64,000 nt of DNA from a virus. The notes under the pieces were generated by a model that had not been told where the DNA came from, ran no database searches, and saw only the letters and a list, made by a program, of their open reading frames with translations. The stretch spans positions 1-64,000 of the IMG/VR virus record IMGVR_UViG_3300013113_000858. One strand, 5' to 3'. Made by a program: the position numbers and the translations under genes. Of the stretch, positions 30 to 36,900 are shown piece after piece (within the stretch, counting starts at the first letter, position 1; each line of letters starts with the position of its first letter).

Positions 30-272
30 GGGGGTGAACTGGATTCGACTGGGTGTCGAGATAAAGTTGTGCAAGGGTGTATAAGCAAACACTAAAAGGC
101 TTAAAACAATAAATGCAAATGATAATGTTGCACTTTCTTTAGCGGCTTAAGCTAAACGGGGTTTTTACGGTTTTTCCTTGTAACCCAAACAAACCGTGCA
201 AATCGATTTTAACCTTGTATATCACAACCTATTAAAACATTTAGGACGCGGGTTCGATTCCCGCCACCTCCA
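30..272 (+). ncRNA. ssrA: tmRNA (one-piece, compact)
   Basis: Transfer-messenger RNA, which rescues stalled ribosomes and tags the unfinished peptide for degradation. The 5' strand GGGGGTG (30-36) pairs with CACCTCC (265-271), and the third pair is G32-U269, the G-U wobble that alanyl-tRNA synthetase recognises. The conserved CTGGATTCGAC block follows the 5' strand. The T arm is at 248-264 (GCGGG, loop TTCGATT, CCCGC). The discriminator is A272, and CCA is not encoded. The tag frame runs from 115 to 150: GCA AAT GAT AAT and onward to TAA, giving ANDNVALSLAA. The stop codon sits in a small hairpin (TTTAGC...GCTAAA), as in other tmRNAs. At 243 nt it is much shorter than the roughly 350 nt of typical bacterial tmRNAs, so some pseudoknots must be reduced. 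Neighbours are phage genes and a tRNA fragment, so I read it as phage-borne. Confidence 0.93.
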
Positions 273-819
273 TTTTCCATTTCTGAAATTCTTCTTCATT
301 GAGTCCAATCATTTGATAGATCTTTTTCCTTAACTCTTCTTTATCTTCAATCGAGTTGAACCATACCCATGAAATTGTAGATTGATTGGTTTTGATTCTT
401 TTTTCTGTTTCACTTATTGCCTGTTCGATTAGAGAGTAGTCTTCTTCACTTAAAAACTTCAAGTCTATATCGTTTTGGCTTGCCATTTTTATTATTCCCA
501 CCAAATCATCATTATCACCACATTCTGTTAGTTTTTTAAACTGTTCTTCCGCATCTTCTCTCAAGGATGTGTCCGGGTGTAGTATTTTAGCTAAATTTCT
601 ATAAATTTTTTGCACAAGTGGTGATGAGTGGGGGCTTGACTGAGGTTCACACTTTGGTTGCAATTCCTCTTCATTTTGTAAAGATTTTAGGAAACACATC
701 TCATCGTAAAATTCTTTATCAAATTTTTGTGAATATTTTTTAGATAACTCATCCACTTCCTCGGATTCAAGTTCTAGGTATTCTATTTTAAGAGTTATTT
801 TTTTGAAACGCTTTGACAA
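241..819 (-). CDS. J-domain (DnaJ-like) protein
   Basis: 192 aa. Residues about 68-115 look like a J domain: a helix II with YRNLAK, the HPD signature at 81-83, then a helix III with EEQFKKL. J domains stimulate the ATPase of Hsp70 (DnaK), so the protein probably recruits host DnaK to a phage or host client. The acidic, charged N-terminal 50 residues could be the client-binding part. The start is TTG (819-817); no in-frame ATG lies early enough to keep the domain intact, and no good ribosome site is seen. It starts six bases after the protease gene ends, so both are likely one minus-strand transcript. The stop is inside the tmRNA gene: the last 10 or so codons (MEVAGIEPAS) are the antisense of the tmRNA acceptor/T arm, with 32 bases shared. 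This tail is likely not functional protein sequence. Confidence 0.7.
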   Translation of the reverse strand: MSKRFKKITLKIEYLELESEEVDELSKKYSQKFDKEFYDEMCFLKSLQNEEELQPKCEPQSSPHSSPLVQKIYRNLAKILHPDTSLREDAEEQFKKLTECGDNDDLVGIIKMASQNDIDLKFLSEEDYSLIEQAISETEKRIKTNQSTISWVWFNSIEDKEELRKKIYQMIGLNEEEFQKWKMEVAGIEPAS

Positions 820-1788: not shown

Positions 1789-3111
1789 ATGGCAAAAAAA
1801 TTTTATGTTTTAGACACGAGCGTATATCTTACTGATTCTTCTTCAATTTATTCATACGGAAATAATGATATCATCGTTCCGTTAGTGGTATTGGAAGAGT
1901 TAGATAATAATAAAAAAAGACCAAATGGTGTGGGAATAAATGCTAGAAGCATTATCCGTATTTTAGATAAACTAAGAGAAAAGGGGCAATTCCAAAAAGG
2001 AATTAGGATTCGAAAAGGGGCAGGACTGATATTTACTGTTGCACCCGATTTAAATGATCTCCCAGTTGGATATGACCCAGAAATTCCAGATCACCAAATC
2101 ATCGCGACGGCGCTAACAGTTCAAAGAGAGCATCCAAACAAGAAAGTGGTTGTGGTATCTAATGATATTAATTTAAGGATTAAATGTGATGCTATCGGAG
2201 TAGCAGCAGAGGCTTATGCTACCGAAAATGTAATTGAAAAAGGAAACGAACTTTATAATGGTTTTACAAAAGTTCTAGTAGATGATCAGATAATCGATAG
2301 GTTTTATTCTGGTGAAGATATTATTATCTCTGATGTTTCTGACGAAAAAGTCGATCTTTATCCTAATCAATTTATAATGCTTGTCTCTTCTTCCAACGAC
2401 AAGAAGACTGCAATTACAAGATATATGGATCATATCCGACCATTAAAAAAGATTCCTGAATATAAGGATGGTGGCTGGGGAATAACCCCAAAAAACAAAG
2501 AACAAAATTTTGCTATGGATTTATTATTAGATCCTGATTTACCGGTAATATCACTTATTGGTAAGGCCGGAAGCGGGAAAACTCTGTGTGCAATTGCGGC
2601 AGGGTTAGAGCAGGTGATGGGCCAAGATCCGAAATACAATAGGTTAATTGTTTCTAGGCCAATCCAACCAATGGGTAAAGATATTGGATATTTACCTGGG
2701 ACAATGGAGGAGAAAATGGCACCTTGGCTCGCCCCAATTCAAGATAATTTGAGATTTCTTTTTGGAAATGATAACTTAATGTTGGAATCTTATATGGAAA
2801 AGGGGATTATTGAAGTGGAAGCGATCACATACATTCGAGGAAGATCAATTCAGAAATCATTTATTATTATTGATGAATGTCAAAACCTAACACAACATGA
2901 AATTAAAACTATTTTGACTCGCGTTGGACATGATAGTAAGATTATTTTAACAGGTGATATTGAACAAATTGACAATGTTAATATAGATGAGACTTCCAAT
3001 GGTTTAACATATGTGATTGAAAAATTAAAGCCTTACGATGTGACCGGCCATATTACCTTTTTGAAAGGAGAACGTTCGAAAGTCGCAACATTGTGCGCAA
3101 AAGTTCTTTAA
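1789..3111 (+). CDS. phoH: PhoH-family ATPase with N-terminal PIN domain
   Basis: 440 aa, the usual length of PIN-PhoH (PhoH2-type) proteins. The PIN nuclease domain spans about 1-150, with the first acidic residue in VLDTSVYL (Asp9), a second in VLEELDN, and the typical SNDINLRIKC stretch near 125-135. The PhoH helicase/ATPase domain follows at about 230-440, with Walker A GKAGSGKT near 258-265, Walker B FIIIDECQN near 355-363 and sensor LTGD. PhoH2 proteins are described as RNA-unwinding and RNA-cutting enzymes, and PhoH is one of the commonest auxiliary genes of marine phages. The role in infection is not settled. The ATG at 1789 has only a weak AGG upstream. It faces away from the protease gene and opens the long plus-strand gene run. 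Confidence 0.93.
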   Translation: MAKKFYVLDTSVYLTDSSSIYSYGNNDIIVPLVVLEELDNNKKRPNGVGINARSIIRILDKLREKGQFQKGIRIRKGAGLIFTVAPDLNDLPVGYDPEIPDHQIIATALTVQREHPNKKVVVVSNDINLRIKCDAIGVAAEAYATENVIEKGNELYNGFTKVLVDDQIIDRFYSGEDIIISDVSDEKVDLYPNQFIMLVSSSNDKKTAITRYMDHIRPLKKIPEYKDGGWGITPKNKEQNFAMDLLLDPDLPVISLIGKAGSGKTLCAIAAGLEQVMGQDPKYNRLIVSRPIQPMGKDIGYLPGTMEEKMAPWLAPIQDNLRFLFGNDNLMLESYMEKGIIEVEAITYIRGRSIQKSFIIIDECQNLTQHEIKTILTRVGHDSKIILTGDIEQIDNVNIDETSNGLTYVIEKLKPYDVTGHITFLKGERSKVATLCAKVL

Positions 3112-3855: not shown

Positions 3856-4187
3856 TTAAATTTAATATTACAAAAGATTTGGAAAACAATACTTTAAAAG
3901 TTGTTGCATCTGTTCCTGACGACAAACATCAATGGTGGGTTTGTGAATTGAAGGATGTAGAGTCTTATCTAAGGGAAAACCATATATCTCACGGGAAATG
4001 TATTCACGATGATTATGCTTGTAATCACATGCCTAAGTGGGAAGGTACTTTTTTGTTTGAATTAAAGGAAAAAGAGTCTATTAAAAAAGAAATTCCCAAG
4101 AAAGTGGTTGACAAAACCACATCTAATGTGATATCATCTAACAAAGCTAAAAGAACTAAAAAGGTTGTAAAAGCTAAAGATGATTAA
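3852..4187 (+). CDS. Small protein of unknown function
   Basis: 111 aa, not recognised. The N-terminal 75 residues look folded, with a HQWWVCEL strand and a Cys/His-rich stretch (HGKCIHDDYACNHMPKW, about 49-65) that might bind a metal. The C-terminal 35 residues are lysine-rich and low in complexity (ending KRTKKVVKAKDD), typical of a disordered nucleic-acid-binding tail. It overlaps the metallopeptidase gene by four bases and ends two bases before the nuclease gene, so the three are probably co-translated. Its function could be tied to either neighbour. Confidence 0.7.
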   Translation: MIKFNITKDLENNTLKVVASVPDDKHQWWVCELKDVESYLRENHISHGKCIHDDYACNHMPKWEGTFLFELKEKESIKKEIPKKVVDKTTSNVISSNKAKRTKKVVKAKDD

Positions 4188-4964: not shown

Positions 4965-6296
4965 ATGGCAGACAAGAAGATAAAAGTCTTAACAATTTCA
5001 GACCATCCCTTATCACCATCCGGCGTCGGAACACAAACTAAATATTTTATTGTAGAGCTTTTAAAAACTGGCAAATTTTCGTTTGTAAGTCTAGCGGGGG
5101 CCATAAAACACGACTCTTACAATCCAACCAAAACCGAAGAATTTGGCGATGATTGGGAAATCCACCCAGTCGATGGCTACGGAAACCCGGACATTATTAG
5201 ATCATTAATCAGGTTTCATAAACCAGATATTCTATGGTTTATGACTGATCCACGATTTTATGGTTGGTTATGGCAAATGGAAAATGAAATCAGATCATTG
5301 GTTCCAATGGTTTATTATCATGTATGGGATAATTATCCTTACCCTAACTTTAACAAGGTCGCATACGATTCCACAGATGCCGTTGTTACAATTTCTAAAG
5401 TAACCTCTGATATTGTAAAAACTGTATCTCCAGATGTGTATGAAGCTCATATTCCACATTCCTGCCCGCCAAACTTGTTTATCAAAACACCGATAGATAC
5501 TCAAAAAAATATGCGCAAGCATTTGTTTGGTGATGATAATCCAGATCGTTTTTTCGTATTTTGGAATTCAAGAAATGCTCGAAGAAAACAGAGTGGGGCG
5601 TTGATTTGGTGGTTCAACGACTTCTTAAAAGAGATTAAAAAAGAAGACGAAAATGCAACTGCCTCATTGGTTATGCATACTGACCCAAAAGACCCCAACG
5701 GTCAGGATTTGTATGCGATCATAAATGAGCTAGGGCTAAACAACAAAGAAGTTATGATCTCCACAGACAAAATCTCCCCTCAAGATCTTGCAGTTATGTA
5801 TAGTGCAGCAGATGTGACAATGGGAATTTCAGATGCAGAGGGTTTTGGTCTTTCTACGTTTGAATCATTAATGTGTGAAACACCGATCATAGTTACAATG
5901 ACTGGAGGGCTTCAAGAGCAAGTGACACCAATAACAAAAATATCAAAAGATATTATGTTAGAGAGGAACGCAGCCAACCCCGGAGCAACAGTGTATGAAC
6001 ATGGAATTGGTATTGAACCCCGAGCAAAATCAGTAATCGGCTCCCAACCAGTTCCATACATTTATGAAGATAGAATTTCTGGTAGAGATATGGTCGAAGC
6101 TTTAACTACGATGTATAACTTTGGACCCGAGAAAAGGCAGAAGCTTGGCGAAGCGGGCCGTAAACATATTTTAACAAATTATAATTATGACAATTATATT
6201 AAACAGTGGGAAAAGGTTATGACCGAAGTACATGAGATAAACGGTTCATGGGAAAATAGAAAGAATTATAAATCTTGGGAGTTGAAAGCAGTATGA
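4965..6296 (+). CDS. Glycosyltransferase, GT4/GT-B family
   Basis: 443 aa, full length for a GT-B enzyme. The N-terminal half has the first Rossmann domain (VLTISDHPLSPSGVGTQTKYF, with a glycine-rich loop). The C-terminal half has the nucleotide-sugar-binding motif SDAEGFGLSTFES near 290-300 and the following PIIVTMTGG. It transfers a sugar from a nucleotide-sugar donor; donor and acceptor cannot be read from sequence. The start ATG has a clear ribosome site (AGGAGA). It is the first gene of the glycan run and overlaps the next by ATGA. Confidence 0.9.
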   Translation: MADKKIKVLTISDHPLSPSGVGTQTKYFIVELLKTGKFSFVSLAGAIKHDSYNPTKTEEFGDDWEIHPVDGYGNPDIIRSLIRFHKPDILWFMTDPRFYGWLWQMENEIRSLVPMVYYHVWDNYPYPNFNKVAYDSTDAVVTISKVTSDIVKTVSPDVYEAHIPHSCPPNLFIKTPIDTQKNMRKHLFGDDNPDRFFVFWNSRNARRKQSGALIWWFNDFLKEIKKEDENATASLVMHTDPKDPNGQDLYAIINELGLNNKEVMISTDKISPQDLAVMYSAADVTMGISDAEGFGLSTFESLMCETPIIVTMTGGLQEQVTPITKISKDIMLERNAANPGATVYEHGIGIEPRAKSVIGSQPVPYIYEDRISGRDMVEALTTMYNFGPEKRQKLGEAGRKHILTNYNYDNYIKQWEKVMTEVHEINGSWENRKNYKSWELKAV

Positions 6297-8449
6297 ATCC
6301 AAAAAAAGTAGTAGTCAGAGGACCAGCCCTTAGCCAAAGCGGGTATGGAGAGCACACACGCTTTGTTCTTAGATCTCTAAAAAGTAGACCAGATTTGTTT
6401 GAGGTATTTCTGTTGAATGTCAATTGGGGGCAAACAGGTTGGATTTGGGAAAATTCACCAGAGCGTTCTTGGATTGATTCAATACTTCAAAAAACTATTG
6501 CTTTCGGTGAGCAGGGGGGAAGATTTGATCTATCTGTCCAAGTCCAAATCCCCAATGAGTGGGAACGACTCGCTCCGGTTAATATCGGAGTTACAGCAGG
6601 GATCGAATCAACTAAAATATCTTCTGAGTGGGTGCAGGGAACGAAAAACGTTGACAAGATCGTAGTCGTGTCAGAACACTCAAAGTACGGATTTGCAAAC
6701 ACAATCTATGAGGCGACAGATCAAAACACAAACCAGAGAGTGTCACTTAAAACCACTTGTCCCATTGAGGTCGTAGGGTATCCTGTAAAAGACATTAACC
6801 CAGATAAAAGTTTTAAATTAAAGTTAAAACATAAATTTAATTTCTTAACAGTTGGCACCTGGATTGCAAGAAAGAATCTAGAAAATACAATTAAATATTT
6901 TGTGGAAGAATTTAGAGATCAAGATGTTGGCCTGATTGTAAAAACTAGTTTAGTGAAGAACTGTTTAGAAGATAGGCATCACACATATAATAAACTAAAA
7001 GAATTGCTGTCGGAATATGAGGATAGGAAGTGTGAAGTTTATTTGTTGCACGGAGACTTAAGTGAGGCAGAAATGACCTCTTTATATAGGAATCCTAAAG
7101 TTAAATGCCTCCTCAGTCTCACCCACGGCGAGGGCTTTGGATTACCACTCTTTGAGGCTGCTTATAACGGGCTGCCCGTAATTGCACCTAATTGGAGCGG
7201 TCATTGCGACTTCCTGTATATGCCTCTAAAAGCAAAAAACGGGAAAATTAAGAGAACACCAATGTTTACTCCAGTCTCTTATGATATCAAACCAATCCAA
7301 CAATCAGCACATTGGAATGGGGTTTTGCAAAAAGATTCAATGTGGTGTTTTCCGCAAGAATGGAATGCTAAAAAAGCGATGCGCGAGGTGTATAAAAACC
7401 ATACATCCTTAAAATCAAAGGCCAAAAAGCTACAAAAGTATGTAATTAAAGAATTTTCAAAAGAAAACCAATTCAAGAAAATGGTAGACACTGTTTCTCC
7501 AAATAATCAAGAATTAAAACTAGATTATGTTTTTGTTGCAGACGCTTTTGCTAATCAATACCTCGGTGGAGCAGAACTAAGCCTTCAAGCATTAATTGAG
7601 AAAGCACCAGGCAGCAATCTTTTGCTAAACGCTAATGTTGTTGATGTTGATACGGTAGAAAATTATAAAGATAAAAAATGGATTTTTGGCAATTTCTTCA
7701 CCTTATCTAAAGAAGTTTTAAAGCTGTTCGCAGAAAGCGATGTAGAATATTACGTTATTGATTCAGATTACCATTTTTGCGAACATCGATTGAAAGAGTT
7801 GTGTATGATGTATAATTCTTCTGATGATTGTTATTGCCCTGAAAAAACAGAACATGGTAAGATTGTGAGATCCTTTTTAAAGAATTCAAAAGTGACATTC
7901 TTTAGATCCGAGGAACACAAAAATCAATATCTACAAAAGATTGATCTTATGGAAGAGCAAGCAAAAGTTTTGACTTCAAACTTTTCTTCTGATAATTTAA
8001 ATTTAATTTCTCGAATGAGAGAAGATTTTAAGAATCTGAAAGAAGATTTTTGGGTTGTCACTTCGTCCCCGTCATTTGTTAAGGGTGCAACTGCGGCAAA
8101 GGCTTGGTGTGAAGCAAATAATAAAAAATATGTTGAAGTTCACGGAAAGAGTTATATAGAAACCTTACAGATCCTAGCCAGAGCACAAGGTTATTGTACG
8201 ATGCCAGCAGGAGCAGATACTTGCCCGAGAATGGTCATTGAAGCAAAATTGCTTGGTTGTGAACTTCAAATGAATGAAAATGTACTACACTCAAATGAAG
8301 AATGGTTTAATATGGAAAATATTTCTGATATTGAAACATATCTAAAAAGTCAAACAGATTATTTCTGGTCATTTGTAAATGATAATTTAAATATTGAGGT
8401 TATTAGTGGAAATCAATTTCAAAATCGTAGTCACGATGTTCAATGTTGA
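6293..8449 (+). CDS. Double-module GT4-like glycosyltransferase
   Basis: 718 aa from the ATG at 6293, which shares ATGA with the previous stop and has GGGAG upstream. An in-frame TTG at 6275 is less likely. The first module (about 1-400) is a standard GT4, with GPALSQSGYGEHTRF at the front, VGTWIARKN in the hinge and HGEGFGLPLFEAA near 278-290. The second module (about 405-718) looks like another, weaker GT-B fold: GGAELSLQALIE at its front and ADTCPRMVIEAKLLGCE at its C-terminal site. It resembles the single-module enzyme at 9149 in its NVVIDARAAGCE-type motif. Two active sites could add two sugars in turn, or the second could be a binding module. The next gene starts inside its 3' end. Confidence 0.87.
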   Translation: MNPKKVVVRGPALSQSGYGEHTRFVLRSLKSRPDLFEVFLLNVNWGQTGWIWENSPERSWIDSILQKTIAFGEQGGRFDLSVQVQIPNEWERLAPVNIGVTAGIESTKISSEWVQGTKNVDKIVVVSEHSKYGFANTIYEATDQNTNQRVSLKTTCPIEVVGYPVKDINPDKSFKLKLKHKFNFLTVGTWIARKNLENTIKYFVEEFRDQDVGLIVKTSLVKNCLEDRHHTYNKLKELLSEYEDRKCEVYLLHGDLSEAEMTSLYRNPKVKCLLSLTHGEGFGLPLFEAAYNGLPVIAPNWSGHCDFLYMPLKAKNGKIKRTPMFTPVSYDIKPIQQSAHWNGVLQKDSMWCFPQEWNAKKAMREVYKNHTSLKSKAKKLQKYVIKEFSKENQFKKMVDTVSPNNQELKLDYVFVADAFANQYLGGAELSLQALIEKAPGSNLLLNANVVDVDTVENYKDKKWIFGNFFTLSKEVLKLFAESDVEYYVIDSDYHFCEHRLKELCMMYNSSDDCYCPEKTEHGKIVRSFLKNSKVTFFRSEEHKNQYLQKIDLMEEQAKVLTSNFSSDNLNLISRMREDFKNLKEDFWVVTSSPSFVKGATAAKAWCEANNKKYVEVHGKSYIETLQILARAQGYCTMPAGADTCPRMVIEAKLLGCELQMNENVLHSNEEWFNMENISDIETYLKSQTDYFWSFVNDNLNIEVISGNQFQNRSHDVQC

Positions 8450-9152
8450 GAAGTGGGCTGAAAAAACTGTTAAAAGCGTAGTAAATCAAGAGTATAGCAA
8501 CTTTTCTGCTATATTTGTTGATGATATTTCAACTGACAATACAGCTAAAATTGTTTCTGAGATTATTGAGGGAGACGATAGATTTACATTAGTCAAGAAT
8601 ACAGAAAAAAAATATTCTTTAAAAAACATCTACGATGGTATTAATATTTTAAACCCCGACAGTAATGATGTGATTGTTTCGCTCGACGGCGACGATTGGT
8701 TGGCAAACCCACAAGTATTATCTAAGTTAAATAATATATATAACAACAATGACTGTTGGGTTACTTATGGAAGTTATTTAGAGTTCCCGACTGGGAATAT
8801 TGGTATTGAATCCTCTCCATATCCAAGCTCCGTAATTACTAACAATTCTTATAGAAAAGAAAAGTGGAGAGCTTCACACTTAAGAACCTTTAAGTATGGG
8901 CTTTGGGATAAGATTAAGTATGAAGATTTTTTATACCTTGATGACAAGTTCTGTCGCACTTGTATTGATAAAGCATTTATGTATCCTCTGCTAGAAATGG
9001 CCGGACCTCGTGCAAGATATGTTAGCGATATACTTTATATTTACAATCTAGTGAACCCGAATAATGTACACAAGGTTGATAGAACACTCCAATTGAATAC
9101 TGATGCATTTTTACAAGCTAAAACACCCTACTCACGAGTAGACCAGCTATGA
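8406..9152 (+). CDS. Glycosyltransferase, GT2/GT-A family
   Basis: 248 aa from the GTG at 8406. GTG is chosen because GAGG stands six bases upstream and the family normally starts just before the first strand (here FKIVVTMFNVEKW). A TTG at 8394 would add four residues. Family signs are NQEYSNFSAIFVDDISTDNT in the nucleotide-binding half and the metal-binding DGDDW near 93-97. It overlaps the preceding gene by 44 bases in another frame and the next by ATGA. At under 250 aa it is a bare catalytic domain with no membrane helices, so it works in the cytoplasm. Confidence 0.87.
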   Translation: MEINFKIVVTMFNVEKWAEKTVKSVVNQEYSNFSAIFVDDISTDNTAKIVSEIIEGDDRFTLVKNTEKKYSLKNIYDGINILNPDSNDVIVSLDGDDWLANPQVLSKLNNIYNNNDCWVTYGSYLEFPTGNIGIESSPYPSSVITNNSYRKEKWRASHLRTFKYGLWDKIKYEDFLYLDDKFCRTCIDKAFMYPLLEMAGPRARYVSDILYIYNLVNPNNVHKVDRTLQLNTDAFLQAKTPYSRVDQL

Positions 9153-10081
9153 AAATTTTTTTAGAAAATGTTAATATAAATTCCTCTAGTGGGCCAAACC
9201 ATTTTGGGAGAAAATTAAAAAAATTTTTAGAAAGAACAGACAACACTTGTGTTTTAACCCCCCAAGTTTGTGATTCTCACTTGTGCTTTATACAATCAAA
9301 TTGTTCAATTCAAAATACTCCACTGGTTTTGAGACTTGATAGCATCTATTTTGATCCAGCCCAAAATATAGATTTTTTAAATTCACCAATTAGAAAGACA
9401 TACGAGAGAGCAGATGGGGTGATTTTCCAATCAGAGTTTTCAAAAAATCTTGTTTTTAATTACTTCGGAAAGCATGATGATTGCAAGGTCATCAGAAATG
9501 GAGCAGATCAAGAATTTATTGATGCAATCGAGCCACTAAACTCAAAACAAATTGATAAATTTGATAAAGTGTGGTCTTGCGCCGCAAGTTGGTATTATGA
9601 CCAGCAGTTGACCCAACCCCGGACAAGAAAGAGGTTAAAAGAAAATATTGCATATTTCTTAGAGTTTTCAGGCGAAAATGACTGCCTCATCATTGCTGGA
9701 GATGTGCCGCCACGTGACAGGTCAAATAGTAATAAAATATTTTACACTGGGAACCTCAACACACCTACTTTGTTTTCGTTATACAAAAGATCAGATTATT
9801 TCATACACTTATCTAGTTATGAATCTTGTCCAAATGTTGTTATAGACGCGAGAGCCGCAGGTTGTGAAATTATTTGTTCTTCTCTGGGAGGTACAGCTGA
9901 GATTGCCGGAGCGGGCGCGACTGTGGTTCAAGATTTTGAATGGGACTTCACTTCAAAAAATTTAAAAATTGAAAACAATATTAACTTTTCTAAAATATAT
10001 AAAAATGAATTCAATTCTGAATATGATATGGTAGAAGTATCTAAAAAATATGAAGATTATATGTTAAAATTCAATATATGA
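9149..10081 (+). CDS. Glycosyltransferase, GT4-like
   Basis: 310 aa, short for GT-B. The N-terminal domain is trimmed but has the usual order: GPNHFGRKLKKF at the front, VLRLDSIYFD, ADGVIFQSEFSKN and VIRNGAD. The C-terminal site is SSYESCPNVVIDARAAGCE near 225-245 followed by GGTAEIAG. It is related in layout to the enzyme at 16100 (FADGVVYQSNWSK, then NDTCSNSLIESMSCGLP), so the two are probably paralogues or share an acceptor type. The gene overlaps both neighbours by four bases. Confidence 0.85.
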   Translation: MKIFLENVNINSSSGPNHFGRKLKKFLERTDNTCVLTPQVCDSHLCFIQSNCSIQNTPLVLRLDSIYFDPAQNIDFLNSPIRKTYERADGVIFQSEFSKNLVFNYFGKHDDCKVIRNGADQEFIDAIEPLNSKQIDKFDKVWSCAASWYYDQQLTQPRTRKRLKENIAYFLEFSGENDCLIIAGDVPPRDRSNSNKIFYTGNLNTPTLFSLYKRSDYFIHLSSYESCPNVVIDARAAGCEIICSSLGGTAEIAGAGATVVQDFEWDFTSKNLKIENNINFSKIYKNEFNSEYDMVEVSKKYEDYMLKFNI

Positions 10082-20351: not shown

Positions 20352-22064
20352 TTGAAAATTTTAAATAACAAACCGAAATTACCGGTTCCAAGTGAAATTA
20401 TTAAGAGTTTCAAAAAAGATTCTTTAAAGGGTGTAAAGATAACCTTTATTAATATGCCGTTGAGGGAAGCAGCAAAGCCAAATGTGCCACCCGAAGGTCC
20501 ATCAATTTTAGCTGCTATTTGTAGAGAGCATGGTGCATCTCCGCATATCATTGACTTAAATGCTTATCGTATGAAGGATAAAGACTCCATTCTACGCGAC
20601 TTACCCAATGGTCGGCATTTAACCTATGCTGAAGCTGAGAATATGTTCTTGAGACACCTAGAGACTGCTGGAGATCAAGACGTTATAGCATTTTCGGGAA
20701 AAATTACAACTCTGCGGTGGCAAGAGCAAATGGCAAAAATAGTCAAAAAACACCAACCTGACTGTTTTCTAGTATCTGGAAATGGTCTTGCCACAGAAAT
20801 GAAGTCGGGATTATTTAATTGGATACCAGAACTTGATGCGATTGGTAGATCTGAAGGTGATGACATTATCTTAATAATGTGTCATGACTCTAAAATGATT
20901 AAACAATATGGATTAACTAGAGCAATTAACGGCGGCCATTTAAGCCCATATCACGTTGGCGAAGTCAATGGAAAATCTCGATTTATTTACCAAGGAGACA
21001 GACCAAAGAACCTTGATTCTTTACCTTACCCCGCATTTGACCTATTAGAAAGTGACCCATATGGGCATAATGTTTTAGAAGATTACATAAAAGTACCAGT
21101 ATGGGGGCTTGCAGCTAACAACAGCTCAGCGACCCCATTTACAATGGAAAGAAGCTTGACAACTGTTAGTAGCAGAGGATGTCCATATGCTTGCGCCTTT
21201 TGTTATCGCGGAGCCCAGGGTGAAAGAAATTATGGTATGCGTAGCAGTGAACATATTGCCCAACAAATTCGCAACTATGTAGATAAATATAATTTAGATT
21301 TTATTGGTTTTCCAGATGATAATTTCGCAGTAGATAAACGTAGAATCAAACGAATGATTCCTGTTTTTAAGAAGTACGGTCTTGATAAGGTTCGGTGGGG
21401 AACACATACGAGAATGGATGAGGCAGATGATCGTGCTTATGATATGGCAGAATCAGGATGCGTTTATATCGGTTTCGGAGCAGAATCAGCAGATGCAGAA
21501 ACTTTAACAAATATGAAAAAAGGCGGCTTCATCCTCAAAAATGGTATGGAATCAGTTTCAGTAAATGGTTCTGTTTATGAATTCCCGGTTACGATGATGA
21601 ACGCTATAAAAAATTGTAAAAAAGCTGGCATTCACCCCAACTGTACTTGGATTATGGCTTATCCAGAGGAAAAACTACATAATTTGAAAACCTCTGTTGC
21701 CTTTATTTTGTGGCAACAAGAGTTCTGGTCACAAGGTCTAAACCCCACCACCACAGAATACCAATTAGCCCAAGACGCAGTTAACTCAAAAATGTTTACC
21801 GCAACAGCATATCCTGGAACAGAAATGTGGAAAGTTGTTCGTTCCGATTTAAAAAAACATTTTGATATCAATTTTGATGCAGATGGTAATCCAATTTGCG
21901 ATGATAATCTTCACAATTATGTTTTAGAGTTGGATGATGCAACAAAAATTTTAAATGATAAAGATGGCAATCCAGTTAATTTTGGTTCTATGAAAATGGA
22001 TGATTTCTTGCAAGCTCGCGAACATATCGACAATAATCAGATTGAAAAAATACTTGACATGTGA
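20352..22064 (+). CDS. B12-binding-type radical SAM enzyme
   Basis: 570 aa. The N-terminal ~200 residues resemble a cobalamin-binding Rossmann domain (GVKITFINMPLREAAKPNVPPEGPSILAAICREHG; no plain DxHxxG is seen). The radical SAM cluster motif CxxxCxxC is at Cys277, Cys281 and Cys284 (CPYACAFC), followed by GFPDDNFAVD and FGAESADAETL, typical for this group. Class B enzymes methylate unreactive carbons or rearrange substrates. Near glycan genes a C-methylation or ring change of a sugar is possible. The start must be TTG at 20352: no ATG lies upstream before a stop, and the next ATG would cut off the B12-type domain. There is no ribosome site. Confidence 0.83.
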   Translation: MKILNNKPKLPVPSEIIKSFKKDSLKGVKITFINMPLREAAKPNVPPEGPSILAAICREHGASPHIIDLNAYRMKDKDSILRDLPNGRHLTYAEAENMFLRHLETAGDQDVIAFSGKITTLRWQEQMAKIVKKHQPDCFLVSGNGLATEMKSGLFNWIPELDAIGRSEGDDIILIMCHDSKMIKQYGLTRAINGGHLSPYHVGEVNGKSRFIYQGDRPKNLDSLPYPAFDLLESDPYGHNVLEDYIKVPVWGLAANNSSATPFTMERSLTTVSSRGCPYACAFCYRGAQGERNYGMRSSEHIAQQIRNYVDKYNLDFIGFPDDNFAVDKRRIKRMIPVFKKYGLDKVRWGTHTRMDEADDRAYDMAESGCVYIGFGAESADAETLTNMKKGGFILKNGMESVSVNGSVYEFPVTMMNAIKNCKKAGIHPNCTWIMAYPEEKLHNLKTSVAFILWQQEFWSQGLNPTTTEYQLAQDAVNSKMFTATAYPGTEMWKVVRSDLKKHFDINFDADGNPICDDNLHNYVLELDDATKILNDKDGNPVNFGSMKMDDFLQAREHIDNNQIEKILDM

Positions 22065-22070
22065 TAAAAT
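22042..22070 (+). promoter_or_regulatory. Extended -10 promoter overlapping the radical-SAM stop codon
   Basis: TTGAAA (22042-22047), 17-base spacer, TAAAAT (22065-22070) preceded by TGTGA. The TG of the extended -10 belongs to the TGA stop of the radical-SAM gene (22062-22064). Predicted start near 22077, two bases before the ATG at 22079, so leaderless. A second TTGACA at 22054-22059 is too close to serve as -35. Confidence 0.5.
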
Positions 22071-22078
22071 ATTATCAT

Positions 22079-22852
22079 ATGAAAAAAGGTGTTTTTATAT
22101 CTGTTCGTACAACTTCAACTAGATTACCCAACAAAGCCCTGATGAAAATTGGGAATCTTTCTACGATAGAGCATTTGATAAAAAGGGTAAAGAAATCCAC
22201 TAAAGCAGATCAAATAGTTTTATGCACAAGCGATCAACCAGAAGATAACACCTTGTCTGAATTGGCAAAAAAATGGGAGATAGGATGTTTCAGGGGAAGT
22301 TTAAAGGATAAACTTGATCGGTGGTACAAAGCAGCCGTCGCCTTTGACGTTGATTATTTTGTTAATGTAGATGGTGATGATATCTTTTGTGACCCCGAGC
22401 TTATTGATTTGGCGTTTGATCAATTTGAAAAAGAGGGGCATGATTTTGTAAAGTGCGATGAAGAGAATTTAGTTGTTGGTGCATTCACTTTTGGTGCAAC
22501 AAGAAATACGCTAGAAAAAATTTGCGATATGAAAGATACAGATGACACGGAAGCCGCTTGGCTTTCATTTTCAGAACTAGACTTGTTTGATACAAGAATT
22601 TTGTCAAATGTTCCCAAAAAACTACAAAGACCAGACATTCGAGCAACGCTTGATTATCAAGAAGATTTTGAGTTTTTTAAAGCCGTTATAGAACATTTTG
22701 AAGGTAATAATATAGAGGAATACTCATTGGGAGATATAGTTGAATACCTGGATTCAAATCCAGATATTATTGAAAGTAACCGATTATGTCAAGCAGCTTA
22801 TTTACAGAATCAAAAAAAATTAACCAAACTTGTGTTAAAGGAAGAAGGATAA
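22079..22852 (+). CDS. SpsF/CMP-sugar synthetase-like cytidylyltransferase
   Basis: 257 aa from the ATG at 22079. A GTG at 22061 is in frame but lies upstream of the predicted transcript start. SVRTTSTRLPNKALMKIG is the nucleotide-binding loop of the CMP-Kdo/CMP-NeuAc synthetase fold, and FRGSLKDKLDRWYKAA then FVNVDGDDIFCDPELID match the SpsF subgroup, with the metal-binding acidic pair in DGDD. It activates an acidic sugar with CTP, here probably the product of the NeuB-type synthase four genes on. It ends four bases before the aminotransferase gene. Confidence 0.85.
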   Translation: MKKGVFISVRTTSTRLPNKALMKIGNLSTIEHLIKRVKKSTKADQIVLCTSDQPEDNTLSELAKKWEIGCFRGSLKDKLDRWYKAAVAFDVDYFVNVDGDDIFCDPELIDLAFDQFEKEGHDFVKCDEENLVVGAFTFGATRNTLEKICDMKDTDDTEAAWLSFSELDLFDTRILSNVPKKLQRPDIRATLDYQEDFEFFKAVIEHFEGNNIEEYSLGDIVEYLDSNPDIIESNRLCQAAYLQNQKKLTKLVLKEEG

Positions 22853-22856
22853 AATA

Positions 22857-24071
22857 ATGAAAAACCCAACCAAATATTACGGAAAAGAGCTTGAATATTT
22901 AAAGAAGGTTCTTGAGTCGGAAAACTGGACATCTACATCTGGAACTTGGAACCAGCTTTTGGAGTCAGAATTTTCAAAGAAGTTTGAATCTGATTATGCA
23001 ATCGCAATGAATTCAGGAACTTCCACCCTACACGCAGCACTGGTCGCGGTTGGTGTCAAACCAGGCGACGAAGTTATCTCACCGGCTCTAACGGTAATTA
23101 TGGATACTTCCGCAACAATCCACGCTGGCGCAGTTCCAGTATATGCTGATATTGACCCCGAAACATTCAACATAGACCCAGATGATATAGAGAGAAAAAT
23201 AACTTCAAAAACCAAAGCTATTATTATTGTACCGCTTTATGGTTTGCCTTGTAATATGGACAGGATTATGGAAATTTCTGAAAAATATAATATTCCAGTT
23301 ATAGAGGATAATGCACAATGCTTTTTAAGTACCTATAAGGGTAAAAAGATCGGAACCTTTGGCGCACTTGCAAGCTATAGTTTTGAAAATTCAAAACATA
23401 TGTCCTGTGGAGAGGGTGGAATTCTTATAACCAACAATGAGGAATACGCCACAACAGCTCGAAAAGTTAGCAACCATGGGTTCAAAAACTCAACCGCTGT
23501 AAATGGTAGAATTAAATTAAACCTAAGTGATTATCAAAATCCAGATTATAAAAGACACGATGAAATTGGGTGGAATTATCGACTATCTGAATTCGGTGCA
23601 GCGATTGCTACAGCTCAATTAGAGAATCTTGAAAATATGGTAGACACCAGAATTGAAGCTTCGCTTCTATTTTTAAATGTGATTTCAGAAACCGAGTGTG
23701 AATATCTGATTCCTCAAAAAATAGATGAAGATGCAATAAATTCATTTTGGACATTCACAGTTGTTTATGAAGGCGAGGAGAAATTGGGAGTATCTTGGAA
23801 AGACTTCCGCGAAAAGTATGTTGAATTCGGTGGTGATGGAATATATTCAGCCTGGAGTGTTCCCTACTTGGAGCCTGTAATGGCCACTGGTGCTTTTGTC
23901 AAAACAAATCCTAAAATTTATAAGAAAACAAGATATGAGAAGGGGCTTTGTCCTGTCGCAGAAGAAATCCAACCAAAGATTATGCAATTTAAGAACAACT
24001 ACCGAGATCTTGAGCTTGCACAAACTAAAGCTGAAGCTCTAAGGAAAACAATTGAATTCTTTCGGAAATAA
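22857..24071 (+). CDS. DegT/DnrJ/EryC1/StrS-family sugar aminotransferase
   Basis: 404 aa, full length for the family. Lys180 in SFENSKHMSCGEGG is the PLP Schiff-base lysine. MNSGTSTLHAALVAVGVKPGDEVISPALTVIMD and VIEDNAQCFLSTYKGKKIGTFG are the standard cofactor and substrate loops. It puts an amino group on a keto-sugar nucleotide. In nonulosonate pathways such an enzyme (PseC/LegC-like) makes the aminated hexose precursor. The usual NDP-sugar 4,6-dehydratase partner is not in this window. The start has a strong ribosome site (AAGAAGGA). Confidence 0.92.
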   Translation: MKNPTKYYGKELEYLKKVLESENWTSTSGTWNQLLESEFSKKFESDYAIAMNSGTSTLHAALVAVGVKPGDEVISPALTVIMDTSATIHAGAVPVYADIDPETFNIDPDDIERKITSKTKAIIIVPLYGLPCNMDRIMEISEKYNIPVIEDNAQCFLSTYKGKKIGTFGALASYSFENSKHMSCGEGGILITNNEEYATTARKVSNHGFKNSTAVNGRIKLNLSDYQNPDYKRHDEIGWNYRLSEFGAAIATAQLENLENMVDTRIEASLLFLNVISETECEYLIPQKIDEDAINSFWTFTVVYEGEEKLGVSWKDFREKYVEFGGDGIYSAWSVPYLEPVMATGAFVKTNPKIYKKTRYEKGLCPVAEEIQPKIMQFKNNYRDLELAQTKAEALRKTIEFFRK

Positions 24072-30920: not shown

Positions 30921-33900
30921 ATGGCAACCATCGACAAAAATAAAGATGTTAAACCTCTGGTTAGGATTGATTGGACACGCTCAAGTGTAGATGAACCGTT
31001 TTTCCAAGAAACTGAAACCAAAAAAGTTTTAAACCTAGATACAACTCTTCCAAATCGTTATTCCATAAGGGTTGATACCGAATTCACAGATACTGGTGGC
31101 GAAGATTTAGCTGCAAGAATGGAAAGTGCTAAATATATTGGTGTTTCCAAAATACTGGAGTTTTATAATAAAAAACCTGGCGAAGCAGACATTGGCATAG
31201 CTGAGGATTGGTATCTACCAGAAAGACCAGGGTCGAAATTAAGAGTATTGGTATCCATATCAGAAGATAATGTGGATAAAAGGGAAGCCTTGCCGATCCC
31301 TACAATATCTGAACTGCCAGCTCCTTGGGAAGAAATACAGTTTAGTACATTCAATTTAGATAAGAAGATAAAAAACATATCTGAACTTTTAAATAAATAC
31401 AAAAAAGAACTGGATGATCTTCGCGGAAAAGCCATTGGAATAGATATAACCTTAGAATATAATAATTTACTTAATTTTACCCCATCTTTGACATCACTCA
31501 TGAGTTCTAACGGCTATGTTTACGACTCATCAAACTCAAACCTTCTAACGATGGGGATTGACAAAGACTATAATGTTCTTTATACAATGTTGAATGATGG
31601 TAATGGGTATAACAATTTATATAACAAGTTTAACTTGTTTAAGAAAGCCCCCGCAATCAAAAATGATAGAACCATCTACTTTTTATCAAAATTAGATGAA
31701 TTAAACAAACTATCAAAAACAGATGATTATCCCTCGTTATCATCATTTTTTGATGAATATGTTTTAAATCCACCGATAATTGACTTCTCAAAGCCACCAC
31801 CACAAAGTTATGTTCCAGATGAAGAAGTTGACAGGATACACCAAGAGTGGTTAAAAGCAAGATTCCCTGGCCCAAAAACTCAAAAAGAACTAGAAGAGCA
31901 AAACAAAAAATTAGAGTCACAAAAAATGAAAGCAGAGCTTCAAAAACTGCTTGATAGTAAATCGGAATTTGTGAATGATTATTTAATCGGGTCGATTGGT
32001 TCTTTGTCAGATGGAATGGCTTGGGTTGATGGAAAAATTGATTATGTTTTTGACAACCTATTAAACAAATTTCCAATCCAAAATCTTATAACGTCAGCAC
32101 TTGAGTGTCTAGGGTTCAGAGGAACAGAATTTTGGGCCATTTCTAAACAGTTTTTAAACAATGCAGAGATGTTTTTAAAGGACTCCAACAGATTATTTGA
32201 TTTACCATTACAAAACTTCCCAGATGATTTTCCAATTGTAAATTATATGAAAGATATTGGAATTAAAATTTTAAACGGTATGCTGGAAGCCATCGTACAA
32301 ACATTAATTAAGATGGTTATGATGGTTTTGGAAGCTCTTTTAGACTTTTGTTCCGGTTGTGTTGGTCCCGGTGGCTCAAATTTTGCATTCGGCAAGCTAA
32401 ACCTAGGAGATTTAACCGCCAAACTCGGAGCAGAATTTGCCATGGGTGTTGTTGGTGCTGTGGATAATGGCCTACAACAATCAGGAGTAAAACAATTAAG
32501 TGCAGAGGTTGTAGAGCAAACAAACCAATGGGCAAAAAATCCAGTTTTACTACCAGGCGAAAAGAATGCAGTTAGTTTAATAACGAAAGAATCGGGAGAA
32601 TCAGAAGAGTTAAACAAAGAAGATTTACAGCAACAAGCATCCCAGATGAAGGTAATATCTGCCAAAAAAGAAATGAGTAAGTTTTTGGATGCAGCATCAG
32701 CAGTTTTAACACCTGGTGAAGCTGGCAACCTCTTGCTTGGGTGTAACGTCGGTAATGAACCGGTCAATGCAATTAGAAATTTGTTAGATAATTTTCCAGC
32801 AATTAAAGCTGTGATGGCCCCCAATGACATAAAAGACAGTGATATCAAGTCTTGGTTTAAAACTTTTGGAGATTTAGTTTCCGCACCAGCAATTTTATCT
32901 ACAATTGCAGACGTTAACGACTCTCTTCCTGAACAATTTCGGTGTCTGTGTGATGAAGATGAATCAAATCTGAGAGCAGATCTGTTAAATAATCGAGCAA
33001 CTCGCTCACAGATTGAAGAACAATTAGAAAAGTCAAAAGACAGAAGGGAAAAAGAGTTAAAAGACTTGGCAGACTTGTTAAATAAAGGAAACTTTATGGA
33101 CAATGTTCTTCCATCAATTTACTGCTCTAAGAATCCTGATGGAACAATTAAGCCAGGATTGATTGAGAATGATCACCCAAGCATGTCTTTTATGATGGAT
33201 AGCGTTCTCGATACGGTTTATGACAACATAGCTTTATCTTACAATCAGGATGTTGCGGGATTAATTCCGTCCATGATGGTGACTTCGCTTGGAGAAGAAG
33301 AGGTACAGAGAACAAACCGAGTAAATGTTCCAAATATTGGCTGGACACGAGTTTTAAATCCGAGATTTGTTGAATTGGTAAACCAAGGCGTTTATTCATA
33401 TGGTTCAGTTTCACACGATGCAATAAACCCAGGATTTTCTGGAAACCAAAATAAAGTATTTCCAGATGGTAGAACAGTGGATCAAAGAGGTCATCGCGGC
33501 TGGGCACAAGAAGAAGGTAAGTGGTTTGGGCTCGGCGGTGGTACTCCTGCCGACGCTGAACTTCAATACCCACACAACGCAGGACAATGGGATGCAGGCC
33601 AAACAAGACCAACCGGAGAACAAGAATACCAATGGGAAATCGCTCAATTAGCTGATGCTGCAATAAACAACACTCAAGCAGGTAGATATTCGTTAGACTT
33701 CAGATACAATGGTTCAAGATTCCCGACTAATGGAGAAATGACCGCGAAGTTTGGATATTCCCCAGTTCCAGTAAAAGCTTCTAAAAATTTAGGTAAAGAG
33801 TTCATTCCTGGTCTCAAAGATTCGTTTGAGAATTTTTGTAGCGGAAATAATTTAGAAATTTTTGATCGAGAGCAGTTTCATATTTACGGTTTCAATATTC

Positions 33901-36900
33901 CGAATAAAATACTAGAGCAAACTGGTATGAGTGTTGACCAGATTAAAAAATTATCTGATAATCAAGTTCAAAGCGCAGGATCAGTGGTAGGATTATCAAA
34001 TCAGCAAATGGGAGACGCCTTTACTGCAATATCTAAAGTGGCTTCTGCTATTCAAAAATCCAAATTTGAAATTGATTATATAGTTCCGTTTGGAAGTTCG
34101 CTCAATACGGCTGGGAAGCAATTAGATTCATTTGCACTCAGCGTGGTACTATCACCCATGGAAGATGGTCAAAGCAGCCCATATATGTTCCCCTTGTCTT
34201 TCCAGAGAAGCGACAAGACAATCGATGAAAAAGCAAATTATGTAATTTCTCTAAAAGGGTTGGATATTGCTACCGAAGCTGGCCCTCACATACCTCAAGA
34301 GAAATACTTTGTTAAATTATTAAAAGATTCTTGGAATAATGGCGGCTCTGTATGGAACAACAACGAACGTGTAACAGATAAGCCAATTTATGGGAGTGGA
34401 ATAGATAAAGTACCACAACCATCATCATTGCAATCTGATCCTATAAAGGATGAATATTATGATTCTGATGCCTATGATCAGATATTCAAGGAGTTATATT
34501 GCAGCTTTACTAATCAAATTGCAAAGTCTCCATATTTAGATGGCGCTAATATAAATAAATTAAACTTTCACCCAATGAGACAAATTGGTGGTCCAAATTG
34601 TAACCCCCACTTGCTAGATCTTGAGGCAATAAAAGATCGAATAAAGAAAGAATATACAGTCATACAATGCATAGAAGCTTCATACCCTAGCGTTGATGGG
34701 TTGGGTAGTAACAAAGATAATCCATTTGAACAAGCAAACTTCAGTGGTGCAGTCCTAACAGCAATTAGGACTTATACGATGGAAGTTTTATTGAGATCTG
34801 TTTTTTCCTTTTATTGGTTCCGATATCAGACAGCAGCAGATGTGGACCAATTGTTAGTAAGTTATATAGCAAATATAATAACTGGTGATATTAGTGCTAG
34901 AAGTAATCCCCCGAATACTGACGGTAACTATATTGTTATCTTTAAAGAGCAGGTCTTGAAACTTTACAACAGAAATCGTCCACCTGCTGAAAAACTGTCT
35001 AACTACAAAAAAGCACTTGAATATTTGGTTCGCCAACAAATTTTTTCTTGCACTCAAAGGCTATCAAATGTCGTCGGGTCTGTTGGAGAAACATCGATAG
35101 ATACGATCCTGTTAGAAGAGTGGCTTCCAACTTATAATGTCCCTAACGTGGATGGAAAGTCTTTAAATGCTTATGGTGAGTGGGCAAATAGATTTGAACA
35201 ACAACCTGAAAGTTTTTCAAATGCATCTGGCAAACAATTTGTTGAACCACAAGAAGCGTTATCTTTGGCTCCATATGGCGAACTAAGTGATGAAAAACTA
35301 GTTAATGGTCGTTTAGGTTTCGGATTAGCAAGAACACCAGAGATTCAAGTCCGAGGACCAGGAACCGGATTCTTTCATTTCTATCCTGTCGGCTCATTTT
35401 TTAGAGAATTTTATTCTGATCCTGTAAACCGTTCGACTGCTCAAGAGATGCCAAACGGTTCGCTGATCGGTCCTGGGCTGCCCAAAAATATTTGGTCATA
35501 TGAGGAGAGTACAACCTCAGAACCAGCCCCCAATTTAACATGGATTAGGGGAGACGCAAATTATCTATCCCGAAGCAAAGAGAACGCAGATAGGGAAAAG
35601 ATGATTTTGTGGAACTCTGCGCTTCTTCAATTAAACCAAAATAAAGATCCCACCATAAAACAAAACCCAGTTTATAAGTTTGGTGTTTCTGATTCTGAAA
35701 AACAAGGGATGGAAATAATAAACAATTTTATGTTTGCCTCAACGAAGTGGACGCCGCAGCGAAGGCAGGAAATCGCTGATGTTCGCGATATTAGCGAAGC
35801 AGATAGAAGAAGCGCAGCAGCCAAACCAGGATACCAGCCAGAAGATATACACTATTATCCTGGTTCATGGTTGAGAGTACACTCTAAGCAAGTCCGTCGA
35901 ACAGAAACAGTTGGGGTTGAACTTAAAGGCAATGATATATGGAGAAGAGTTTTTCCTGTTGGTAAAAACGGAAGTTCAATCCAAGATGTTCAAACCAGGC
36001 ACGTCGAAGAATCCGAAGAAGTAGGCTCAGTTCAGCGCAGGACTTATTCAGGAGTTGTATCCCCACCAGTTGGTGACGGAGACAATTTTAGTGAATTCGG
36101 TGAAGATTATGTTGTAGCAAGCAGGACAAGAAGCCAAAATGCAAGGATTACGGTCCAAACCCCAGTAAGGTGGGTGGAGATAGGTGGCGTTAGAACTGGC
36201 CCTTGGGTGTTTGACGGTAACTCTGAGGAATGGATTAATGAAGGTGGCCCCCTCCAAACACAGGATACTTTAACTAATACATTCCTTGGAACTAAAAATT
36301 CGTCCGGCGCTTATTCAGGCGGCGTTTTGACCCCAACAAGAGGTCGCCAAAGCACAAATCATCTAGCATATTTCCAACGAACTATTAATTTATTAAATTT
36401 AGGTAAAATACCTTATATGAGTTTGTTGGATTTCGATCTAAAAGATGGATTACTCATACTACAGTGGGAGCTTGAACACTGGAAATCTGTTCAGAGAGAT
36501 GACAATACATCTCCAGAATGGTTACAAGAATTAATAAACAAATATGAAAATATTTGGATCCCTAAATGGATCGAGGCTCATGATTTATTGCAGTCTGCTG
36601 CAAGTGAAAGAATGTTAATGCGCTCGTCGGTTGAGGAAAGGTTAAGAAATTACCCAGTTGCCCGTCGCGAAATGGCGACACCATTGACATTTGATATGTC
36701 GAATGGGAATATAATACAGGAAATCTATTTAAGAATCGAGGAGTTAGACGCTTCACCAGACCAAAAAGTGTTTGTAAATTATGATGACTTAGTAATGAAT
36801 CATCAGTTTGTGGATGATAGGGATGATTCTTTGAGAGGCGTGGTCAATATCGACGCCTTCCAGGACTATATCACTAATAAGTTCAAAAATGTTCCTGACC

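Follow-up and report, generated by a model that had tools for sequence, protein, structure and literature searches.

A compact phage tmRNA and the probable empty site of a gene nested in its sister tmRNAs

When a tmRNA gene of reduced size is encountered in a phage genome, the question is whether so small an RNA can still work, and what takes the place of the parts that it lacks. To our knowledge, the purpose of phage tmRNAs has not been established. The gene considered here comes from a 64,795-base viral contig, the first 64,000 bases of which form the stretch of DNA analyzed (hereinafter, the window). Hence, the tmRNA sits at the very edge of the contig, and its own promoter would lie outside, the upstream half of the locus being cut off by the contig start. 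In keeping with a T4-like marine myovirus, the window has genes for a PhoH protein bearing a PIN domain, for a trypsin-like protease and glycosyltransferases, for an endolysin, and for baseplate wedge proteins and a late sigma factor.

Phage tmRNAs are already known: they have been found in 402 of 18,146 phages (PMC9004378), so that the window gene belongs to a known class, and one-piece ssrA genes have been described in Bacillus phage G and in the mycobacteriophages Bxz1 and Wildcat (PMC4131195). A tmRNA database of 2025, with 97,179 sequences, distinguishes standard, T-loop intron, permuted and tag-less forms (PMC11915505).

The window tmRNA and its conservation

The original prediction placed at 30-272 a compact alanine tmRNA with the tag ANDNVALSLAA. 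ARAGORN calls one tmRNA in the window, with exactly these bounds and this tag (Table 1), and the covariance-model search that had been proposed as a check yielded a strong match: cmscan aligned positions 30-275 to the Rfam family RF00023 with 110.1 bits (E 3.8e-42), far above the cut-off (gathering score) of 47 bits and over model positions 1-374, with both ends complete. The RNA is a one-piece molecule of 243 nt in the standard order, its acceptor half being located downstream, at 213-272, and this strand folds better than shuffled sequences (z -2.6). CCA is not encoded; the discriminator is A272. The predicted G·U wobble, of the G3·U70 type used for alanine charging, is in place and is retained in 23 of 23 relatives, the T loop is a UUCRA loop, and H2, a conserved and covarying helix of 23 pairs, joins both halves of the molecule. 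The tRNA end noted 11 nt before the tmRNA is that of a tRNA-Gly: in the near-twin contig L112, the tRNA-Gly is whole at the same place (4084-4157) and the tmRNA starts from 4168, which shows the spacing to be right.

The expectation of complete pseudoknots was borne out in part. PK1 and a single downstream pseudoknot are present, that is, two instead of the typical four, and a sequence-by-sequence pseudoknot scan found neither PK3 nor PK4 in the window tmRNA. None of 60 shuffled sequences scored as high as the downstream, PK2-like element. Its stem S2 covaries, from ACGG/CCGU to CCGG/CCGG; stem S1 is less certain, the scan favoring an alternative, GCGGGG/CCUUGU, for most of the relatives, and GGGUU/AACCC for the window. 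Such a two-pseudoknot architecture is compatible with function, since the last three pseudoknots of the Escherichia coli tmRNA are dispensable in vitro and since the coding piece of two-piece tmRNAs typically carries PK1 and PK2 only (PMC3985003). As to size, the RNA is indeed small compared to bacterial tmRNAs, but the existence of a 273-nt tmRNA in Streptomyces phage Tomas implies that compactness alone is not new. On the opposite strand, the end of a small ORF (241-819, minus strand), which has a DnaJ-like match just under the Pfam cut-off, overlaps the final 32 bases of the tmRNA.

Relatives were gathered via the neighboring protease and PhoH genes, via tag and tmRNA core patterns, and by searches of whole viral records. 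Eleven contigs of the clade, the window included, have the compact form, and a twelfth was seen in part. In an alignment of 23 distinct tmRNAs, the 44 pairs of H1, H2, PK1 and the T arm are paired in 98.5% of the cells; when the partners are slid, a control that keeps the relatedness of the sequences, pairing drops to 40-51%. Two-sided changes are seen at 9 pairs against a shuffled mean of 4.0, with 0 of 500 shuffles as high, a comparison that is inflated by changes common by descent, many of the two-sided changes not being independent. The PK1 stems show one-sided as well as two-sided changes among the 23 sequences. Because the alignment columns of PK2 and H5 are unreliable, these elements were checked one sequence at a time. 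The tag, which could have turned out to be a pseudogene in the relatives, is intact in each of its versions (ANDNVALSLAA, ANDNVALTLAA, ANDNVAISLAA and ANDNVALPMAA). Since the tRNA-like domain, H2, PK1 and the tag are all retained among the relatives, with compensatory changes, the window gene, as far as can be judged from sequence, very probably is a functional phage tmRNA of the alanine type, in line with the original prediction.

Table 1. Features of the tmRNA locus, in window coordinates
Feature	Position	Strand	Evidence or remark
3' end of tRNA-Gly(UCC), cut by contig start	1..18	+	same sequence ends the complete tRNA-Gly of L112
Compact one-piece tmRNA gene (ssrA)	30..272	+	ARAGORN; RF00023, 110 bits, full model
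Acceptor stem, 5' strand GGGGGUG	30..36	+	pairs with 265-271; G32 = G3, partner U269
Long helix H2, 5' strand	49..76	+	covaries with 213-244
Pseudoknot PK1, upstream of tag	77..103	+	both stems paired in all cells counted, 23 sequences
Tag frame ANDNVALSLAA, resume codon GCA, stop TAA	115..150	+	ARAGORN; intact in relatives
Hairpin H5 around tag stop codon	138..156	+	hairpin folds in each relative examined
Single downstream pseudoknot, PK2-like	159..197	+	S2 ACGGUUU/AAACCGU; CCGG/CCGG in relatives
Short linker from PK2 to H2 3' strand (empty site)	198..212	+	alignment with nested relatives
Long helix H2, 3' strand	213..244	+	covariation with 49-76
T arm, loop UUCGAUU	248..264	+	3 of 5 stem pairs with two-sided changes among relatives
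Acceptor stem, 3' strand CACCUCC	265..271	+	pairs with 30-36

A gene nested in sister tmRNAs

The newness of the locus rests on its relatives, not on the window alone. In 20 viral contigs from many metagenomes, some of them near-duplicates of one another, the tmRNA houses a complete gene for a protein of 63-69 aa, which follows PK2, precedes the 3' strand of H2 and is headed by a (CA)n leader with a strong Shine-Dalgarno sequence; these contigs include L002-L004, L007, L012, L015, L016, L019, L155 and L159, with tmRNA sequence on both sides of the ORF. In 18 of the 20, the tmRNA is complete from the acceptor stem to the T arm, and in the other two its 5' side is lost at the contig end. In L002, L003 and L004, the closest relatives of the window (PhoH ~95% identical), the tmRNA measures ~470 nt, and the ORF, preceded by the (CA)n leader and AAGGAGG, codes for MSENNN...GYEIRQGLLQQAQRIVEQ...FVQKKD. 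Misled by this complete ORF, which separates PK2 from the 3' strand of H2, ARAGORN assigns to L002-L004 a false tag made of out-of-frame codons of the nested ORF, an example of how nested tmRNAs are mis-annotated by gene finders.

The nested forms are matched by RF00023 end to end, with 89.6-113 bits, and no Rfam intron family was found inside them. The true tag frame is intact (ANDNVALTLAA or ANNDVALPLAA). The strands of H2 flank the ORF and yet stay paired: UA is changed to AU at one position in seven nested sequences, and a two-sided change at H2 columns 21/516 is found in nested sequences only. Folding predicts the inner helix of H2 at ~0.8-0.99 despite the insert; the acceptor-stem probabilities for L002n and L140n are not meaningful because each of these two sequences was cut one to five bases off at an end. 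As for the nested ORF, dN/dS is 0.03-0.32 in 9 of 10 compared pairs, and the tenth pair differs by six synonymous and zero nonsynonymous changes. Judging from these substitutions, both layers, the tmRNA and the nested gene, are constrained in the sister phages.

The window represents the empty-site form of the locus. On the PhoH tree, the nested and the empty state interchange at least four times, on well-supported branches, which may reflect gains, losses or recombination; the linker TTATTATACCA, common to the compact L017, L030 and L235, is only a hint of a deletion scar. In L153, a promoter with 12 of 12 matches to the sigma-70 consensus (TTGACA-18-TATAAT; 1922-1951, plus strand) is located in the insert just before the leader and ORF, within a CCATCCA/TGGATGG inverted repeat, and a near-duplicate contig has this promoter too; in L134, a promoter with 11 of 12 matches immediately precedes the tmRNA itself. 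Both are consensus matches rather than proof of transcription. Three nested copies from different metagenomes (L138, L140 and L143) have the T loop AGUCGGUG in place of UUCGAUU, on a stem that is still paired (GAGGG/CCCUC and GCGGG/CCCGC). This loop may make the RNA unchargeable or may be a mere variant; accordingly, not every nested copy need be chargeable.

The nested protein is modeled as two helices (pLDDT 83.5). Neither PHROG, Pfam and PDB-sequence searches nor Foldseek gave a significant match, and named phages offered no counterpart; the best viral fold match was to an unnamed protein, at E 0.03. In particular, no homing endonuclease was matched in Pfam or PHROGs. Numerous other marine phages encode the same family as an ordinary gene, which a CA-rich leader and a Shine-Dalgarno sequence nearly always precede, so the (CA)n leader accompanies the gene even where it stands alone. 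In L145, L161-L209 and L146, these are two-helix proteins of ~59-76 aa with the pattern GYxLRxxLL...EAEKLYAFVQKK and a strikingly constant ACACACACA-AGGAG leader. In the contigs whose gene context was inspected, the gene follows that of SSB in L145 and L165, precedes UvsX in L165, lies near a head maturation protease and tRNAs in L146 and after a major head protein in L202, and in L200 is found ~100 nt downstream of a normal tmRNA. Comparison with gp33, the late-transcription coactivator of T4, gave no significant match in sequence or fold, the position beside SSB and UvsX being the only lead. Among the viral records searched, the small protein occurs once in each of five nested ones and was not found in the others, including a 156-kb record with the window's tag, although, most of these records being fragments, the absence of the small ORF is not final.

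Possible working of the locus

Structure, conservation, the tag, the nested gene of the relatives and the selection on both layers are read directly from the sequences. From these we infer that the tmRNA is expressed, charged and active in tagging, that it relies on host SmpB, and that the nested gene and the tmRNA are both used, which can be envisaged as follows. The tRNA-Gly and the tmRNA would probably be made as a single transcript, from which host RNase P and 3' processing would trim the tmRNA, with the CCA-adding enzyme completing its end. Host AlaRS would charge it via G3·U70, and host SmpB (no SmpB was found in ten phage records, an absence that is not final in fragmentary records) would, together with EF-Tu, deliver it to ribosomes that have stalled on a broken mRNA. 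On these, the tmRNA would add ANDNVALSLAA, a ClpXP-type ...LAA tag for the host protease, and free the ribosome. The compactness would result from the loss of PK3 and PK4, after which PK1, the tag and H5 remain along with a lone downstream pseudoknot, and the linker that leads from PK2 to the 3' strand of H2 would be a site where the RNA tolerates insertions and which, in the sisters, holds the small protein gene; the location of the nested ORF at the place of the gap in natural two-piece tmRNAs would explain this tolerance. The phage might gain extra rescue capacity during mRNA degradation, or amino-acid recycling; similar roles have been proposed for the tmRNA of phage Melnitz (PMC9004378).

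Thus, we are fairly confident that positions 30-272 hold a working phage tmRNA, the linker of which is the unoccupied counterpart of the place taken by the nested gene in the sisters. For the sisters, we lean toward a complete protein gene, equipped with a ribosome-binding site and, in one lineage, a promoter of its own, that replaces PK3-PK4 within a one-piece tmRNA which still functions, and that alternates with the empty site between close relatives; a single RNA would then serve as both tmRNA and mRNA, or would be split into two pieces.

An alternative that we deem possible, albeit rather unlikely, is that the nested ORF has split the tmRNA, the insert being cut out and the non-permuted halves being joined by H2 into a two-piece RNA. 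The insert does fall after PK2 and before the 3' strand of H2, which matches the makeup of two-piece tmRNAs, where PK1 and PK2 belong to a 5' coding piece and the acceptor piece is separate (PMC3985003), and the pairing of H2 is predicted even with the insert in place; however, because H2 can form in the uncut RNA, excision is not required, no processing site was identified, and the splitting would concern the relatives, not the window. It is improbable that the ORF is an accidental insertion which destroyed the tmRNA, so that only the ORF is used there. The strong Shine-Dalgarno sequence, the perfect promoter of L153 and the three odd T loops are what might be expected in this case, but the nested copies have kept the tag frame, G3·U70, H2 across the ORF and the T-arm stem, the two-sided change at columns 21/516 of H2 is specific to them, and the repeated changes of state on the PhoH tree have occurred without decay.

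Turning back to the window and its working tmRNA, there is very little likelihood that the gene is a piece of host DNA or a pseudogene in decay, passively carried by the phage. Its position at the extreme contig edge and the altered T loops of some relatives would agree with such an origin, and prophages with an attachment site in ssrA can carry ssrA fragments (PMC9004378). However, all parts of the window tmRNA are intact, compensatory changes maintain the pairing, the tmRNA has the same near neighbors, a trypsin-like and a PhoH gene, in numerous independent phage contigs, and no integrase was seen among the proteins scanned. Nor was a host tmRNA with the window's tag found, except for a single alphaproteobacterial one: in a collection of genomes from 84,980 species, the tag pattern occurs in one record, a Sphingomonadales MAG with a permuted tmRNA. 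As this sole genome match is to a permuted tmRNA, naming the host from the tag was rejected. The DNA similarity to named phages is confined mainly to the T-arm region. Finally, although all data come from metagenome assemblies, an assembly artefact as the source of the nested gene is hardly credible given twenty contigs of up to 111 kb from many separate metagenomes, with common junctions and independent substitutions.

Relation to known tmRNAs and minor features of the window

With the standard one-piece phage tmRNAs, the window gene shares the tRNA-like domain with G3·U70, H2, PK1, the resume codon, the LAA-type tag, H5 and a downstream pseudoknot; it differs in its length of 243 nt, in having one downstream pseudoknot rather than three, in its location 11 nt behind a tRNA-Gly and in that its close relatives carry a nested protein gene. 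The permuted two-piece tmRNAs (RF01849, RF01850, RF01851 and RF04321; phage Melnitz, PMC9004378) resemble it in that their coding part has PK1 and PK2 only, and their discontinuity corresponds to the insertion site of the nested relatives. In Melnitz, ssrA lies directly upstream of a small transcription-coactivator gene (PMC9004378). Unlike in the permuted forms, the gene order here is standard; a permuted identity based on RF04321 was rejected, as this match is 5'-truncated and covers the shared 5' half only, and upstream there is no tmRNA acceptor half. The known group I introns of tmRNAs reside in the T loop and self-splice, some of them carrying a homing endonuclease gene (PMC11915505), so that here, too, extra sequence within a tmRNA gene can carry an ORF. 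The nested ORF, in contrast, is located between PK2 and H2, has no Rfam intron match and codes for a short two-helix protein; specifically, the T arm is uninterrupted, and no group I intron family was matched in the window or in the nested relatives.

No published case of a protein gene nested in the mRNA-like half of a tmRNA was found in the open-licence literature, and the nested form would be an architecture outside the standard, intron, permuted and tag-less forms (PMC11915505). Being placed at a break point equivalent to that of two-piece tmRNAs, the nested gene bears on how the latter could arise. In addition, the clade provides a large set of natural variants of a single phage tmRNA on which selection is visible.

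The suggestion that the tmRNA may be tuned to phage mRNAs which are partly leaderless found no support: a Shine-Dalgarno-like match of at least 4 bases is found at 21 of 41 sampled gene starts of the window, as against 23% of random positions, and the remaining starts lie in packed operons, so that "SD-poor" is the most that can be maintained. A match of this length is lacking for about half of the genes at these 41 main starts, whereas the Shine-Dalgarno sequence of the nested ORF in the relatives is strong. Elsewhere in the window, two giant ORFs without a PHROG match, of 2572 and 3216 aa, occupy the tail/baseplate region (30921-38639 and 42410-52060), and a run of glycosyltransferase genes (4965-10081) makes up, together with a radical-SAM/B12-binding protein near a DegT-type aminotransferase (20352-24071), a large sugar-modification cassette.
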